From positions 1 to 37,171 of the IMG/VR virus record IMGVR_UViG_3300031841_002908: DNA of 37,171 bases; one strand, written 5' to 3'. A program made the position numbers and the translations under genes. Each line of letters opens with the position of its first letter. Positions within the stretch are counted from its first letter, which is position 1. The notes beneath the pieces are model-generated. The model was given only the letters and a program-made list of their open reading frames with translations, made no database searches and was not told the origin of the DNA. The stretch comes from a virus. Positions 1 to 24,753 of the stretch are shown here, in pieces.

Positions 1-1504
1 GTGGATCAGTTGCTGTGATGCTTAAACCTTTTGCAGGTAGCACAGTACCAGAACTTATTTTATCAACAAAATCTTCGCCTGAACTTATAATTGTAAAAGT
101 TCTAGTAGACTTGTTGATTAACATTATGTGATCAAAGCCGTCTGTAGTTTTATAACTTTCGTGTTGGATAAATGTTATTGCTTTCATCAAGCCTTCGTAG
201 CTTAAAGTCACACCTTCTGGAGTTTGATTTACTGCTGCATCTATTAGGTTTTCATAGTATTGATCTGTGCGTGAGCCTCTTACTTCTTTATAGTTTATCA
301 CTAGCTCTTGTATTAGATCATGCAGAAACTGTACTGTGTCATTTTTTGAATAGCCCGCAGCATTTAAACTTTTTTGATAATTTTCGGTACCGCTTTTAGT
401 AATACCACTTACGATACTTTTTCCTTTTAGGTCGCCTTTTCTGTGTAATTGATTCATTACTTTCCAAAGCTTATTGTGTTCTTTTCTAAGCAGTCTTGTT
501 ACTCCTGCATGGGCAGCTTTTCCTTGGGTAATCTGTGTGCCATTCAGTCTCCCGCCTGTTGGCGCTGTACCTTTTTTGTAGTTGCCGCCTTTAATTTCAT
601 ATCCCTGGCCGTCAATAATAAGATCGCCTTTTTCTTGCGCTTTCTCTGTCGGGTCACCTAGAGCAGCAAGTGCTAATTCACCAGGTCCGACGTTACCCCC
701 AGTTCCAGCAGGCATGCTGTTAAGAAGGTCATTGATAATTATATTATACACGCTTTTATGAGTTGGATTTACATAGTCATCAATAGAGCCATGACCGCCT
801 TCTGCTCGCACTAAATTAATCATGTTTATCACATGACCGTCAGCAGCAGCCTTAGCAAATTCTAAAGCTTCTTCTTGTTTTAGTTCGCCCGTTTTAATTT
901 TTCGTCTAAAAAGTGTATCAAAAAGGTCCATAAGAGTATTTTGAGTTTTTTCTCTAGTTTTCATTTTTGATATTTCGTTTTTTGTAAATCCTGCATCTTT
1001 ATAGTTTGGAATCACAAAACCGTCTATTTTTTGTGCAAGCCTCGCAAGTTGTGCATCAATTGCATTCATGAATTTTACAGCGTCTGCTTCTGCTGCTGCT
1101 CTACCTTCTGCTTTTGTTTTTTCAAATGCACCATCTACAGTAACTCTTAATTTTGCAATAGTGTCTCTGAAAGCGCCGACAATAGGATCACAGTTAGGAA
1201 CTTCGTCGCAAATCATTTGTATTTTATTATTTAATTCTTCAATAAGGGTATATGTTGCAACATCTTCAGTGATGGGGTCGCTAACTAAATTACCGCTTTC
1301 ATGTTTGTCATGATGAACTTTATTTAATATACTGCTAGCTTTGTTAATCATCGCCTGTATCAAACCCTTTGTTTTGATTACAAGGCTTGCATCTGTTTTA
1401 GCAGCAGTGTCTAGCTCTTTTTCGATAGCTTTGAGATCAGTTTCAATTTGATTTTCTGCTTGCTCTAATAAAAATCTTGGTGTTGAAAAATCTGTGAATT
1501 TCAT
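1..1504 (-). CDS. Putative PD-(D/E)XK nuclease-like phage protein, 3' end outside window
   Basis: Open reading frame of about 501 codons that starts at ATG 1504 and runs off the left edge. GGAG lies 7 bases before the ATG and a TAAATA late box further upstream. Residues 15-200 are helical and charged. Residues 272-305 hold GPGELALAALG, then GDLIIDG and YEIKGG, giving E276, D294, E303 and K305, which fit the E...D...ExK core of PD-(D/E)XK nucleases. The N-terminus MKFTDFSTPRFLLEQAE fits the capsid-targeting-like peptide seen on other proteins here, with LLE as a possible protease site. The nuclease call rests on motif spacing only; substrate unknown. It could be a structural protein with a degenerate nuclease fold. 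Confidence 0.55.
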   Translation of the reverse strand, partial: MKFTDFSTPRFLLEQAENQIETDLKAIEKELDTAAKTDASLVIKTKGLIQAMINKASSILNKVHHDKHESGNLVSDPITEDVATYTLIEELNNKIQMICDEVPNCDPIVGAFRDTIAKLRVTVDGAFEKTKAEGRAAAEADAVKFMNAIDAQLARLAQKIDGFVIPNYKDAGFTKNEISKMKTREKTQNTLMDLFDTLFRRKIKTGELKQEEALEFAKAAADGHVINMINLVRAEGGHGSIDDYVNPTHKSVYNIIINDLLNSMPAGTGGNVGPGELALAALGDPTEKAQEKGDLIIDGQGYEIKGGNYKKGTAPTGGRLNGTQITQGKAAHAGVTRLLRKEHNKLWKVMNQLHRKGDLKGKSIVSGITKSGTENYQKSLNAAGYSKNDTVQFLHDLIQELVINYKEVRGSRTDQYYENLIDAAVNQTPEGVTLSYEGLMKAITFIQHESYKTTDGFDHIMLINKSTRTFTIISSGEDFVDKISSGTVLPAKGLSITATDP

Positions 1505-1536: not shown

Positions 1537-1839
1537 TTAATCATTATCCATAGTAACGTCTAACTGAAATCCTGAATTGTTACTAATTAAAACGCATTCT
1601 AGAATTTTTTGTTCTGCTACTTCAAATGTGTAATTACCCACAGCAGCCATACCTTCACGTTCTATTTCTTCAATACATGATTCTGCACTTTCATCTGTAT
1701 GATGGAAAATACCTAAAAGTATTTCTTTTACTAGATTTCTTGGTGTAGTGTCGTTGTCAAACACATAAACCTTAAACTTAGAAGGAATAGGAGGGTTAGT
1801 TGAAATAGTTTCGTTAATGCTCACTTTTGCTTTAGTCAT
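1537..1839 (-). CDS. clpS: ClpS-like Clp protease adaptor
   Basis: 100 aa, the usual size of ClpS, the adaptor that hands N-degron substrates to ClpAP. Residues 18-40 (PIPSKFKVYVFDNDTTPRN) match the ClpS first strand and N-D-D-x-T-P loop, and residues 63-77 (GMAAVGNYTFEVAEQ) match the G-x-A-x-x-G-x-[YF]-T-x-E-V-A-E core. The substrate pocket differs: by my alignment E. coli N34-D35-D36 reads D28-N29-D30, M40 reads R34, and the conserved H66 reads E60. The fold call is strong; binding of ordinary N-degrons is doubtful. AGAGG precedes the ATG and a late box lies 18 bases upstream, so expression is probably late. Confidence 0.85.
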   Translation of the reverse strand: MTKAKVSINETISTNPPIPSKFKVYVFDNDTTPRNLVKEILLGIFHHTDESAESCIEEIEREGMAAVGNYTFEVAEQKILECVLISNNSGFQLDVTMDND

Positions 1840-1898: not shown

Positions 1899-2345
1899 TT
1901 ACCCATCAATTAGATTAGGTTCGGTGATTGCAATCTTTTTAGGTTGCAGTTCTTCTGGTACATAACGCTTCAAATGAACGTTAAGCATACCCAGTTCAAG
2001 TGATGCACTTTCTACTTCAATATGGTCAGCAAGAGTAAATTCTCTAGTGAAATTGCGTGAACCAATACCTTTGTGCAAATAGTCTACTTCGCCGTTGGTT
2101 TCTGGTGAAGTACCTTGTACTGTAAGTACATTTTTTTCCAAAGTAATATCTAGATCAGCCATACTGAAACCTGCAACAGCAACAGAGATAACAAATTCAT
2201 CGTCTGTCACTTTGACAATATTATATGGCGGATATGAAGTAGTTTTTGAGTTCTCGAACACTCTGTCCATTTCACGGAACATTCTATCAAAACCAATAGT
2301 TGCACGGTGGAGTTGTGGTAAGTCGAGAGTAGTGTATCTTGTCAT
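1899..2345 (-). CDS. hsp20: Small heat-shock protein, Hsp20/IbpA type
   Basis: 148 aa ATP-independent holdase of the alpha-crystallin family. Residues about 36-135 hold the alpha-crystallin domain: YPPYNI, the GIGSRNFTREFTLADHI strand close to IbpA, and LGMLNVHLKR in place of the usual GxL segment. PKKIAI gives the C-terminal IxI that docks on neighbouring subunits. I chose ATG 2345 over an in-frame ATG at 2366 because AAGGAGA lies 5-11 bases upstream. Hsp20 is a common T4-like marine phage gene and is thought to help virion protein folding. The leader shows overlapping sigma70 and late promoters and a ROSE-like structure over the ribosome site, so expression may be temperature dependent. Confidence 0.93.
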   Translation of the reverse strand: MTRYTTLDLPQLHRATIGFDRMFREMDRVFENSKTTSYPPYNIVKVTDDEFVISVAVAGFSMADLDITLEKNVLTVQGTSPETNGEVDYLHKGIGSRNFTREFTLADHIEVESASLELGMLNVHLKRYVPEELQPKKIAITEPNLIDG

Positions 2346-2408: not shown

Positions 2409-2431
2409 CATGGAATCACAGCGTTTGTCAA
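2403..2431 (-). promoter_or_regulatory. Sigma70-like promoter for hsp20, overlapping the late box
   Basis: TTGACA (2431-2426), 17-base spacer, TATAAA (2408-2403). The -10 shares its bases with TATAAATA, so host and late polymerase would start at nearly the same base. The -35 overlaps the guaC stop codon. Confidence 0.65.
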
Positions 2432-3552
2432 TTCCCGATAGTATTTTTTTCGTATACTGCATTGTGTGTTTGTGTGCAACGCACAAAGGTTGTACACTTA
2501 CTAAGTTGCTTGAGGGTTTCTGCTCCTACATACGTGCAAGTGCTTCGAATACCGCCGAGAATATCTTGTACGGTATTTTCTACTGGGCCACGGTAGGGCA
2601 CAAGAATAGTACGACCTTCTGACGAACGGTAATCTTTGAGCCCGCCAAAGTGCTTTTTGTTTGCAGTTTGACTACTCATTCCGTAGAACTTGCGAAACTC
2701 TTTACGTTCGATAACCGGCTTATAAACTTCGTCTTCTTTCATATAGTAATATTCGTTATTATGCACGTACTTAAAGATTTCTTCGCCGCCGCCTTCGTCG
2801 TGGCCAGCTAGCATCCCGCCGAGCATTACAAAGTCTGCACCCGCAGCAAATGCTTTGGCTACATCGCCTGGAGTCGTACAACCACCATCAGCAATAATAT
2901 GTCCACCAAGACCATGAGCAGCATCGGCACATTCCATGACTGCAGAAAGCTGCGGATATCCCACCCCAGTCTGAATCCTAGTAGTGCAGACGCTACCAGG
3001 ACCAATACCGACTTTGATAATATCAGCTCCATTTAGAATTAACTCCTGTGTTTGATCTGCTGTAACTACGTTACCAGCAATAATAGTTTTAAAAGGATAA
3101 GTTTCACGTAGGTGTCTAATAAATTCTACAAAACGTTCTGTGTAACCGTTTGCTACATCTACACAAACGAATTGCAATTTGTCTAAAACTTTTTGATGTA
3201 CTTGCTCAAGTTTATCCAAATCAGCATCACCGATACCAATACTCATTGCCACGTAAGGCTGCGGTTCTGAAAAGAAATCGGCCAGTTCTTCTGCTGAGTA
3301 AGTCTTTACCAAACAAGTAAACATTTTATGGTTGCTCAAAGTACGAGCCATTTCAAATGTTCCCACACCGTCCATGTTAGCAGCCATGATAGGAACGCCG
3401 TTGTAATCATAGTCGTTAATACGAGCGCCTTTTGCACCTACAAAATTGTAGCTACGCTCCATAGTAACATTTTTACGAGAAGTAAGACGGCTACGCTTAG
3501 GGCGAATCAGCACGTCTTTATAATCCAGTTTTACATCATTTTCTAAGTGCAT
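2428..3552 (-). CDS. guaC: GMP reductase
   Basis: 374 aa; reduces GMP to IMP with NADPH and so links guanine salvage to the adenine branch. It follows E. coli GuaC closely: [14 protein letters not shown] near the start, [10 protein letters not shown] at 52-61, [11 protein letters not shown] at 183-192 with the catalytic Cys at 189, [43 protein letters not shown] and STCTYVGA at the C-terminus. No CBS domains, which separates it from IMP dehydrogenase. It is longer than the 347-aa E. coli enzyme, mostly through an insertion at about 257-285 rich in Tyr, Glu and Lys. The start overlaps the S21 stop (TAATG), indicating coupling. It presumably feeds nucleotide supply together with the ribonucleotide reductase genes. 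Confidence 0.93.
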
Positions 3553-3812
3553 TAGAATCCCCGTTGGGCAATGTCTTTTCTAAGTTTTTTAAGATGTCGA
3601 GCACGACCAGCAGCTTTTTCACGTTTGCGTACCTGACTAGGTTTAATAAATTCTTTACGCTGTCTAAATTCTTGGATAATGCCTTCTTCTTGAACACGCT
3701 TTTTAAATCTACGTGCTGCTCCACCAAAGTCATTATTTTTTACAATAACCTGCATGCCTTTTTTGTGTAACACTTCTCGGGCATAAGATTCTATATGTTT
3801 ATTACGGGACAA
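3552..3812 (-). CDS. rpsU: Ribosomal protein bS21
   Basis: 86 aa, very basic. Residues 20-80 match bS21 ([39 protein letters not shown]). bS21 sits next to the 16S 3' end, where mRNA is selected; phage copies are known from pelagiphages and other marine phages and are thought to enter host ribosomes. The frame starts at TTG 3812 with AGGAGG 5 bases upstream, inside the end of the preceding gene. That start adds about 19 residues before the normal bS21 N-terminus. An internal ATG at 3755 would give a 67-aa standard-length protein but its ribosome site is poorly placed. Confidence 0.92.
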
Positions 3813-4185
3813 TTAAACCTCCTATCTTTTCAATTAATTGGTCATAACTATATAGCTGCTTTCTACTAAGCATAGTATAAAATACATTGTTACCTTGTGT
3901 CAACCAGTATGTATTTGATTTAGATAAAATATATCCATCAATTACTCTTACTTGTGGATCAGAATTATCCATATCGTAAAACACAAGATTACTCTGATCG
4001 ATACATGACATAAGCCAATCAGGATCATGCTCTTGCGGCTCATACATATACACTGTGATATTTTCATCCACAGTTTTTAAATACTCACTTAACAAGTTTT
4101 TCACTTCTGCTCTAGGATAAATCAAAAGCAGTTTGATACTATCATCATAAATCTTGTCAGGTGGTGTCGCTACTGCGATTTCCAT
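3802..4185 (-). CDS. Hypothetical protein, alternating beta/alpha pattern
   Basis: 127 aa, family not recognised. Residues 17-30 (IKLLLIYPRAEVKN) look like a strand-turn-helix, then VYMYEP, LVFYDMDN and TYWLTQ look like further strands, so a small Rossmann-like or receiver-like fold is possible. No catalytic motif is clear. It overlaps the upstream membrane gene by 29 bases and S21 by 11, so it is co-translated with them. Confidence 0.7.
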   Translation of the reverse strand: MEIAVATPPDKIYDDSIKLLLIYPRAEVKNLLSEYLKTVDENITVYMYEPQEHDPDWLMSCIDQSNLVFYDMDNSDPQVRVIDGYILSKSNTYWLTQGNNVFYTMLSRKQLYSYDQLIEKIGGLIVP

Positions 4186-5884
4186 TTCTTATTTTGTTCC
4201 AGATTGAATTTTCGTTTTGTTCATCGTTTTGTTTGTATACATAGTGTTCAGGATCCCACGGAAGATAATCAATTTTTTGTCTTAGGTAAGCAGTCTTATA
4301 TTCCTTCAAAGTGTTATCAGGATGTTCTGCTTTCCATGCACGTTTATTTTGGTTCCAATTATCGTCATTTTCTTCTAAGTATTCTATCTCTTCAAGAGTT
4401 AGTCGTTTTGATTCTGCCGATGATCCTATAATTTTTTTTTTGTGATGTGCTTCTGCAAATTCTTCTAAAGGAATAGGATTGCCATCTTTGTCATATTCTA
4501 CTTTAACTTCATGAACCTGTACGCTAGTTTCTTTGCCTTCTTCTTTCTCAACTGCTTCTTCAAGACTGTCTTGAAAATCAGAAAATAAACTGCCTACGTG
4601 CGGATTTACTTCTTTTGCTTGGACTTCATCATCCGAATCACTGATCTCCGTTGTCTCGTTGACTTGGTCAATAGTTTCTTTGTTGTCTTCTTCTTCATTT
4701 AATTTTTCAGTTTTTTTTTGAGCTCTGTTTTCTCTAGCAAAGTTAAAAGTATACTGAGATGCAATAAGCAATAGAACTGCTAGCGGATCGAACACAAAGA
4801 TAATAATAACAATTACCCAACGCACAGCTTCTTCTAAAAGATTCTGTGTTGCATTTTCTCCATATATAAATTCTGCAATGTATCGAATCGGTCCAACTTC
4901 GGCCTCTAACTTGCGATACTCACTTTGGAGTTCAAATTTTTCATCAGTAAGCTTATCTATTTCGTTGCTCGCTTCATTGATACGCACACGCTGCTCGGAT
5001 ATCAATGCAGATAAGTTTGCTTGATCACTAGTTGCAAGTTGCTCACTATAAGTTGTAATTAATTGATTAGATCTATCAATTTCCGCTTGAACACTACTTC
5101 TAATTCTGTCAATTTCACGTCTTGCATTAGTGACAATTGGATCATTAGGTACAAACTCGAGTTTTGTAAGTAACTTTGATCTATCTTCTGCTTTTGCTTC
5201 TTGCCATTCTGCTGCTGCTCGTTGACTACGTGTACCCCAACGTCCGTCAGCTGACACACCAATCATAGTTTGTGCAAGTGCAATTTCACCGTTGCTCAAA
5301 TGTCCTTCTAATTTGACAAGTTCTGCATCAATACGAGAAATTTGATCTTCGATGCTTTGAGACTTACTGGCGATAATTGCCTGTTGTTCGTCGATTTGTG
5401 GTTGAATTCTTGCTAGTGCAGCATTGATACGTTGCTGCTCAACTTCAATTTGATTTTGAATATTTTGCTGACCTGTAGAACCAGTGGTTTCTAATTGAGT
5501 AATACGTTGATTTGCTGTATCAATGATGCTTTGTTCAGCTTGAATTTTCAGTTCAAGTCTTTCAATCTGTGCAAAACTTTGATCACTTGCTGCTGTTTGT
5601 TCAATGTGAGCTTTTGATAAAAAACCAAAAATACCCATAGAAGTAATGAACATAAGCACAAACACTGCACTAGACAAATATAGCTTCAACCACCAAGTTG
5701 CCCTGCCCCAGTAATTATGTAGCCACACTGCTGTTACAAGTTTACCTACCTCTAACACTACGCCCATAATAATAATAGGAATAGCTGCCGCTGCAAAGAT
5801 TGCAACCAAGCCTGCAACAGAATACCAAATTGCAACCGAACTAATACTAAGTGCCGTAATTAAAACTAAAATTCCAAACCACAT
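4157..5884 (-). CDS. Membrane coiled-coil protein with a peptidoglycan-binding-like motif
   Basis: 575 aa. Hydrophobic segments lie at about 1-50 (two) and 68-90, followed by a long Gln/Glu/Ile coiled coil (about 98-330), another hydrophobic segment at about 352-380, and an acidic tail. The stretch after the last segment should be cytoplasmic, with the coiled coil on the opposite side, probably the periplasm. Inside the coil at about 213-228, VSADGRWGTRSQRAAAEWQ resembles the core of the PG_binding_1 repeat (DGxwGxxTxxAxxxfQ). Possible roles are envelope remodelling, lysis timing or superinfection exclusion; none is shown. No Shine-Dalgarno is seen and a TAAATA box ends 4 bases before the ATG. 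The tail coding sequence has A10 and A9 runs. Confidence 0.8.
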   Translation of the reverse strand: MWFGILVLITALSISSVAIWYSVAGLVAIFAAAAIPIIIMGVVLEVGKLVTAVWLHNYWGRATWWLKLYLSSAVFVLMFITSMGIFGFLSKAHIEQTAASDQSFAQIERLELKIQAEQSIIDTANQRITQLETTGSTGQQNIQNQIEVEQQRINAALARIQPQIDEQQAIIASKSQSIEDQISRIDAELVKLEGHLSNGEIALAQTMIGVSADGRWGTRSQRAAAEWQEAKAEDRSKLLTKLEFVPNDPIVTNARREIDRIRSSVQAEIDRSNQLITTYSEQLATSDQANLSALISEQRVRINEASNEIDKLTDEKFELQSEYRKLEAEVGPIRYIAEFIYGENATQNLLEEAVRWVIVIIIFVFDPLAVLLLIASQYTFNFARENRAQKKTEKLNEEEDNKETIDQVNETTEISDSDDEVQAKEVNPHVGSLFSDFQDSLEEAVEKEEGKETSVQVHEVKVEYDKDGNPIPLEEFAEAHHKKKIIGSSAESKRLTLEEIEYLEENDDNWNQNKRAWKAEHPDNTLKEYKTAYLRQKIDYLPWDPEHYVYKQNDEQNENSIWNKIRNGNRSSDTT

Positions 5885-23982: not shown

Positions 23983-24006
23983 GTTTTGGGAATGGAGGGC
24001 AACCCA

Positions 24007-24753
24007 ATGCACATGAAATCACTACGGGTCTCGGGGAGAGGCCACGTTCTTGCGAAACTATCTGAGTTTGTTTACCAAGAACCGGAAGAAGCAGAAAAAT
24101 TAGTAAAAGAATTTGGTTTTCATACTTTTGAATATTATAACAGAGACGGAGCACAAGCATATAGATTTGAAAGCGATTCAGATGTAGTGTTTGCATGCCG
24201 TGGTACTGAACCAGGTAATTTTAATGATATGCTTGCAGATTTAGATGCAAGAAAAGAAGACAGCGAAACAGTAGGCAAAGTACACAAAGGCTTTAAACGT
24301 GAAGCTGACGACATTTGGGAGATGATTTACGAAGATTTAATTGCTCTCAATGATGATCAAAGAAACTTATGGTTCACTGGACACAGCTTAGGTGCTGCAA
24401 TGATTACTATTATGGCAAGTAGAGCGTGGGCCGATGACGCATTGCCAGATCCACTTGAACTACATACTTTCGGATCTCCAAGAGCAGGCGACGCAGTATT
24501 TGCAGACAGCATGAAAGACAAAACGCATTATCGTTGGGTAAACAATAATGATATTGTTACAATGGTTCCGCCAGCATTTATGGGCTTCAAACATGCAGGT
24601 ACTGAAAAGTATATAAATTCTGATGGCCTTGTAGTAAAAGTAGACTTTGTAAAGAAACTCATGGATCGTTGGAATGGATTAATGGGTAACAAAATGGACA
24701 TGATAAACGACCATACTTGTAGCCTATACGCAAAGCACTGCAAAGCAAATTAG
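24007..24753 (+). CDS. Class 3 lipase
   Basis: 248 aa alpha/beta hydrolase. Nucleophile S127 in FTGHSLGAAM, D182 in NNNDIVTMVPP and H236 in NDHTCSLY complete the triad. HTFGSPRAGDAVFAD and GFKHAGTEKY are typical of the family. I chose ATG 24007 because GGAGGG lies 7 bases upstream; earlier TTG/ATG starts are inside that site. No signal peptide, so it would act inside the cell, perhaps on the inner membrane at lysis, or in the virion. It stands alone between a late box and a terminator. Confidence 0.92.
   Translation: MHMKSLRVSGRGHVLAKLSEFVYQEPEEAEKLVKEFGFHTFEYYNRDGAQAYRFESDSDVVFACRGTEPGNFNDMLADLDARKEDSETVGKVHKGFKREADDIWEMIYEDLIALNDDQRNLWFTGHSLGAAMITIMASRAWADDALPDPLELHTFGSPRAGDAVFADSMKDKTHYRWVNNNDIVTMVPPAFMGFKHAGTEKYINSDGLVVKVDFVKKLMDRWNGLMGNKMDMINDHTCSLYAKHCKAN

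Follow-up and report, generated by a model that had tools for sequence, protein, structure and literature searches.

ClpS is an adaptor that passes proteins to a bacterial protease, and the methionine gate of canonical ClpS shuts out β-branched residues. According to PMC12493166, direct contacts with the α-amino group are made by Asn47, Asp49, and His79 of Caulobacter ClpS, which correspond to Asn34, Asp36, and His66 of the E. coli protein; this paper also places the gate at Met40 of E. coli ClpS and assigns Glu79, Glu82, and Lys84 a role in docking to the ClpA N-domain. E. coli ClpS disfavors acidic residues after the first, an effect attributed to Asp36 and Glu41 (PMC12258705), and in Arabidopsis ClpS1 the presence of arginine at the gate changes which N-degrons are chosen (PMC7966870). 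Leptospira ClpS1, as described in PMC12493166, has aspartate and asparagine at motif positions one and three and aspartate in place of the pocket histidine. A survey of jumbo phages found that several encode ClpS, likely bringing targets to host ClpAP (PMC7824862), and the ClpS of Agrobacterium phage Atu_ph07 has already been described (PMC6102473). Among open-access papers, we found no study devoted to a phage ClpS, to the pocket of such a protein, or to the Hsp20–ClpS pair. Because work is under way to turn ClpS pockets into N-terminal amino-acid binders for use in protein sequencing (PMC12874005), natural variants of the pocket have practical value.

Identity of the phage ClpS

The window, by which we mean the entire 37,171-base stretch of DNA analyzed, is an IMG/VR virus record that carries ribonucleotide reductase, tail fiber, endolysin-like, and other phage genes. 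On its minus strand, an ORF with an ATG start (1537–1839) encodes a 100-residue protein with an altered amino-group site (Asp28, Asp30, and Glu60) and an arginine gate (Arg34). Profile matches, predicted fold, and docking residues identify this protein as a true ClpS, in keeping with the initial annotation, which had noted that the fold motifs were kept. First, the ORF matched the ClpS family PF02617 at 47.9 bits (cut-off 23; E 1.2e-12) and PHROG 27368 with an E value of 1.8e-13. It scored below the cut-off for NCBIfam ClpS equivalogs (best 44.3 bits vs 149), as did the canonical phage ClpS of contig L004 (93.8). Second, an AlphaFold model built with 83 viral ClpS sequences as input (rows from loci only, leaving out four rows from annotated phage records) had a pLDDT of 87.8, with core blocks at 92–95, and residues 20–100 of this model superimposed without gaps on residues 39–119 of peptide-bound Caulobacter ClpS (3dnj, chain B; 81 residues, Z 17.8, rmsd 0.5 Å). 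Third, the ClpA N-domain docking residues of E. coli ClpS are all kept, as Glu73, Glu76, and Lys78, in the EVAEQK segment from Glu73 to Lys78 (codons 1606–1623, minus strand). The unstructured N-terminal extension, a delivery element in ClpS, is present as 18 residues ahead of the folded core (1786–1839, minus strand) and has low pLDDT values of 53 for residues 1–10 and 70 for residues 11–20. No Clp-type AAA domain (PF07724) was found in the window or in contig L002, both of which are fragments.

Two more contigs, from other metagenomes, encode an identical protein, and their clpS genes differ from that of the window by two synonymous bases. These independent contigs, with synonymous differences only, rule out an assembly or sequencing error as the source of the substitutions described below.

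Substitutions in the binding pocket

The window ClpS lacks both of the pocket features by which a canonical N-degron ClpS is defined. Relative to E. coli numbering, Asn34 is replaced by Asp28, Asp35 by Asn29, Met40 by Arg34, and His66 by Glu60, and Asp36 is kept as Asp30. The segment Asp28-Asn29-Asp30-Thr31-Thr32-Pro33-Arg34 (codons 1738–1758, minus strand), which includes two amino-group contacts and the gate, corresponds by translation, alignments, and superposition to Asn-Asp-Asp-Tyr-Thr-Pro-Met in E. coli, and the codon of Glu60 lies at 1660–1662 (minus strand; assigned by alignment). Matches by phmmer to Caulobacter and E. coli ClpS, a MAFFT alignment, and the structural superposition all placed Asp28-Asn29-Asp30 on the N-D-D motif, Arg34 on Met40, and Glu60 on His66; because the superposition is gapless, these assignments are secure. 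The residue reading in the initial annotation was thereby borne out. A better alignment restoring the canonical residues, which that annotation had named as a possible refutation, was ruled out by sequence and structure alike, and the fit of the predicted fold to the peptide-bound structure likewise confirmed the pocket changes.

The accompanying claim that the residues holding the amino group differ held for N34D and H66E; however, the Asp36 contact is kept, and Asp35, which lines the pocket (Asn29 in the window), is absent from the amino-group contacts listed in PMC12493166. One of the three Asn-Asp-His contacts (Asp30) is therefore unchanged. The methionine gate is absent, Arg34 standing in its place, and the change from Met40-Glu41 to Arg34-Asn35 (M40R, E41N) leaves the rim less acidic or basic. 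Among the pocket walls, Thr38, Val43, and Leu99 are kept and Met62 and Val65 are isoleucine. The amino-group site, with Asn, Asp, and His changed to Asp, Asp, and Glu, is more acidic; every one of these residues is a hydrogen-bond acceptor, and ordinary or mildly altered N-degron binding may therefore persist.

Pocket states among viral and bacterial homologs

A first scan recovered two near-identical contigs and one syntenic canonical relative (L004). The viral set, compiled from scans with L004, GMP reductase, Hsp20, and an alignment of both altered lineages, comprises about 187 distinct ClpS sequences complete over the pocket (the 189 printed rows include two reference rows), with the window lineage counted three times through trimming. 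The scans based on the neighboring genes (GMP reductase and Hsp20) provide the less biased survey because the L004 scan, via its peptides, selects canonical sequences. Most of the ~187 viral proteins keep Asn34, Asp35, and His66, and histidine occupies the His66 column in 177 of the 189 rows having a residue there. When each pocket is written as motif, gate, and residue 66, the commonest states were NDD/M/H (94), NDN/M/H (35), NDD/I/H (12), NDD/V/H (9), and NDE/M/H (7). Among the ~187, DND/R/E occurred in the window lineage only and NND/R/E in a sister lineage only (L092/L094); L093, L172, and L379, which show NND/R, were all cut from a single contig whose end falls within the gene. Another scan, with L092 as the query, added no members to the altered group.

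Changes at His66 also occurred in a second clade, recognized by the motif LPFEVAEQKG (L108, L115, L122, L132, L135, and L389–L393), where pockets run from NDN/M/H through NDN/Y/H to NDN/F/N and NDD/Y/S and the gate is aromatic (Phe or Tyr). As judged from this series of sequences, the clade lost the pocket histidine stepwise, to asparagine or serine, and independently of the window lineage.

Some 50 bacterial ClpS proteins from genomes of one phylum, a non-random sample in which good scorers were favored, included DDD/M/H and NDD/R/H pockets and none with H66E. Descent of the phage gene from a bacterial ClpS that already had this pocket was considered, and no such ClpS was found among these proteins or in a scan of MAG and genome contigs with a narrow pattern set; that scan returned an evident phage contig, the ClpS of which is canonical, and a second MAG match.

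These surveys bear on the possibility that the substitutions are simply tolerated and that the window protein binds Leu, Phe, Trp, and Tyr N-degrons much as other ClpS proteins do. Consistent with such tolerance, N34D alone (DDD/M/H) and M40R alone (NDD/R/H) exist in bacterial ClpS, NDN, NDE, or NDQ motifs occur in phages, and Asp, Asp, and Glu can each accept hydrogen bonds from the ammonium group. The combination with H66E, however, is confined to the window and sister lineages in the viral (~187) and bacterial (some 50) sets, the nearest other case being DDQ/L/E in phage Atu_ph07, and we consider an ordinary ClpS quite unlikely.

Evolution of the altered pocket

In a tree of GMP reductase and Hsp20 (a quick tree, the drawn root of which is arbitrary), the window and L092 were sisters with SH-aLRT support of 100 and were nested among phages with canonical ClpS, a position that makes a derived origin the simplest account of the altered pocket. 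The sister lineage (L092/L094) has D35N, M40R, and H66E in common with the window and keeps Asn34. By sequence comparison, the pocket evidently changed stepwise and then stayed conserved. Comparison with homologs thus showed the changes to be real, derived, and partly common to a sister lineage, and the earlier description of the pocket as rewired was fair.

Between the window and L092, identity is 96% for GMP reductase, 89% for Hsp20, 78% for bS21, 57% for a 511-residue neighbor, and 47% for ClpS. The clpS gene evolves rapidly across the phage group, and the 51% core identity of this pair at 89% Hsp20 identity ranks near the 5th percentile when similar pairs are compared. Such fast divergence also fits partly relaxed selection, which speaks against a fully working adaptor. 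A gene that has lost its pocket role and is drifting would likewise diverge rapidly beside neighbors of high identity, but several results make decay of this kind very improbable. First, the ORF is intact in every contig in which no contig end cuts it, and copies within the window lineage show only the two synonymous differences noted above. Second, dN between the window and L092 genes is 0.46 and dS is 1.34, which is near saturation; the dN/dS ratio is about 0.34, and protein-level constraint on clpS therefore persists. Third, 12 pocket positions are 75% identical (9 identical) vs 46% elsewhere in the core, and canonical pairs of like divergence have a mean pocket identity of 75% (sd 10%). 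From one lineage pair and 12 sites, this agreement is suggestive of an altered pocket that may be as constrained as a canonical one.

A conserved gene cassette

Directly upstream of clpS is hsp20 (1899–2345, minus strand; PF00011, 61.7 bits), preceded in conserved order by a GMP reductase/IMPDH-like gene (2428–3552, minus strand; PF00478, 234.6 bits) and a gene for ribosomal protein bS21 (3552–3812, minus strand; PF01165, 54.3 bits). All four genes occurred in the order bS21, GMP reductase, Hsp20, ClpS in 115 loci, with GMP reductase after ClpS in 42 more, and hsp20 immediately preceded clpS in 251 of 260 loci having both on one strand and in 143 of 153 loci fetched through ClpS alone, counts in which contigs are partly redundant and events are not independent. 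A clpS gene near an hsp20 gene was also present in phages PA5oct, Atu_ph07, and Sinorhizobium phage Phosso. One contig filed in a Rickettsiales MAG (L325), itself evidently phage, also has the cassette, with a canonical ClpS; the chromosomal clpS of this MAG adjoins a clpA-like gene. The Hsp20–ClpS neighborhood in nearly all loci suggests joint protein quality control during infection.

Other genes at these loci also drew our attention. In L325, a gene that by eye looks heme oxygenase-like (3303–3857) lies directly after the Hsp20–ClpS pair. Downstream of clpS in the window (1–1504, minus strand; full copy in L002, 5336–6871) is the gene for the ~511-residue protein, which matched no Pfam family; its L092 relative contains the stretch VIDGVLYELKGG, which by eye resembles a PD-(D/E)XK nuclease motif. 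A 575-residue membrane protein (4157–5884, minus strand) has a first ~100 residues that match proteins of otherwise different phages, namely Pelagibacter phage Mosig, Xanthomonas phage XacN1, and Stenotrophomonas phage CM1. A gene at 23986–24753 (plus strand) encodes a class 3 lipase domain (Lipase_3, 83 bits) and runs in the opposite orientation to the gene upstream of it.

Proposed function

Based upon sequence, the structural model, and analogy with characterized ClpS proteins, we tentatively favor, with a probability of roughly 0.45, an adaptor that works with the host Clp protease and has a shifted specificity for N-termini. The protein is predicted to be a functional phage ClpS that would dock on the N-domain of host ClpA (or ClpC) and deliver proteins to host ClpP; action through one of these unfoldases is suggested by the docking surface and the extension, both of which are kept. 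Continued binding of the N-terminal ammonium group is predicted from the more acidic site, with its three acceptors, but with different selection. Shifted specificity would be expected because of this acidic site, the Arg34-Asn35 rim, the precedent of the arginine gate, and the E. coli Asp36/Glu41 effect, and would show itself as a changed preference at the first residue, like that of Arg-gated plant ClpS1, and as readier acceptance of acidic residues at positions two to four. The Hsp20 and ClpS pair might then handle damaged or unwanted proteins during infection. Host ClpA binding, continued recognition of N-termini, and changed specificity are all predictions here, and we take the host to possess ClpA or ClpC. 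The two consequences put forward in the initial annotation, a block on host ClpS or delivery of another substrate class, likewise stand as hypotheses.

The docking surface would also serve a competitor, the main rival to this adaptor, which would occupy the ClpA N-domain without binding N-degrons, displace host ClpS, and dampen ClpA action on ssrA-tagged substrates, as ClpS proteins do, thereby shielding phage proteins. Two of three amino-group contacts are changed, the His-to-Glu change could abolish N-degron binding, and, in the available passages of PMC12493166, Leptospira ClpS1 binds ClpA (Kd 0.44 µM) and suppresses degradation of an ssrA substrate. Those passages, however, show no loss of N-degron binding for Leptospira ClpS1, and two lineages have in common the hydrophobic walls and most of the changed pocket residues, whereas a dead pocket should drift. 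We regard a pure competitor as possible, if somewhat unlikely.

A bolder version of the delivery adaptor, which we think rather unlikely, is that a pocket with a new charge pattern reads N-termini that host ClpS ignores and so steers the host Clp protease to chosen proteins. If true, the N-termini read during infection would be, for example, those with other first residues or with acidic residues after the first.

Comparison with known systems

The window protein resembles E. coli and Caulobacter ClpS (3o2b, 3dnj) in fold (Z ~17, rmsd 0.5–0.8 Å), docking residues, hydrophobic walls, and N-terminal extension, but it is only ~28% identical to them and has Asp/Asp/Glu rather than Asn/Asp/His at the amino-group site and arginine rather than methionine at the gate. 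Arabidopsis chloroplast ClpS1 (7d34) also has an arginine gate (PMC7966870), but identity is ~20%, and Phe and Trp were read best by this protein in one in vitro study. Leptospira interrogans ClpS1, as described in PMC12493166, likewise has an acidic residue for the pocket histidine and an altered gate; it differs in being bacterial, in its tyrosine gate, and in replacement of Lys84 by valine, and we draw this likeness with no claim of common origin. Among phage proteins, Atu_ph07 gp708 shares aspartate for Asn34, glutamate for His66, and proximity to an hsp20 gene, but has a leucine gate and a DDQ motif, and the phage itself encodes ClpA (PMC6102473).

Canonical ClpS proteins of the same bS21, GMP reductase, Hsp20, and ClpS cassette (L004, L325, and most of L014–L324) are ~25–42% identical to the window protein but have Asn34, Asp35, and His66 and, usually, a Met, Ile, or Val gate. 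The sister lineage (L092/L094/L093) has the same cassette in the same order and the three common substitutions, and differs in keeping Asn34 and in its 47% ClpS identity. Newly described in this analysis are the conserved cassette, the survey in which most of the ~187 viral ClpS proteins keep Asn34, Asp35, and His66, the stepwise pocket change with its sister lineage, and the independent loss of His66 in a second clade. Canonical, intermediate (NND/R/E), and full (DND/R/E) states thus occur within one gene cassette, and this lineage makes redirection of the host N-degron pathway by phages testable.
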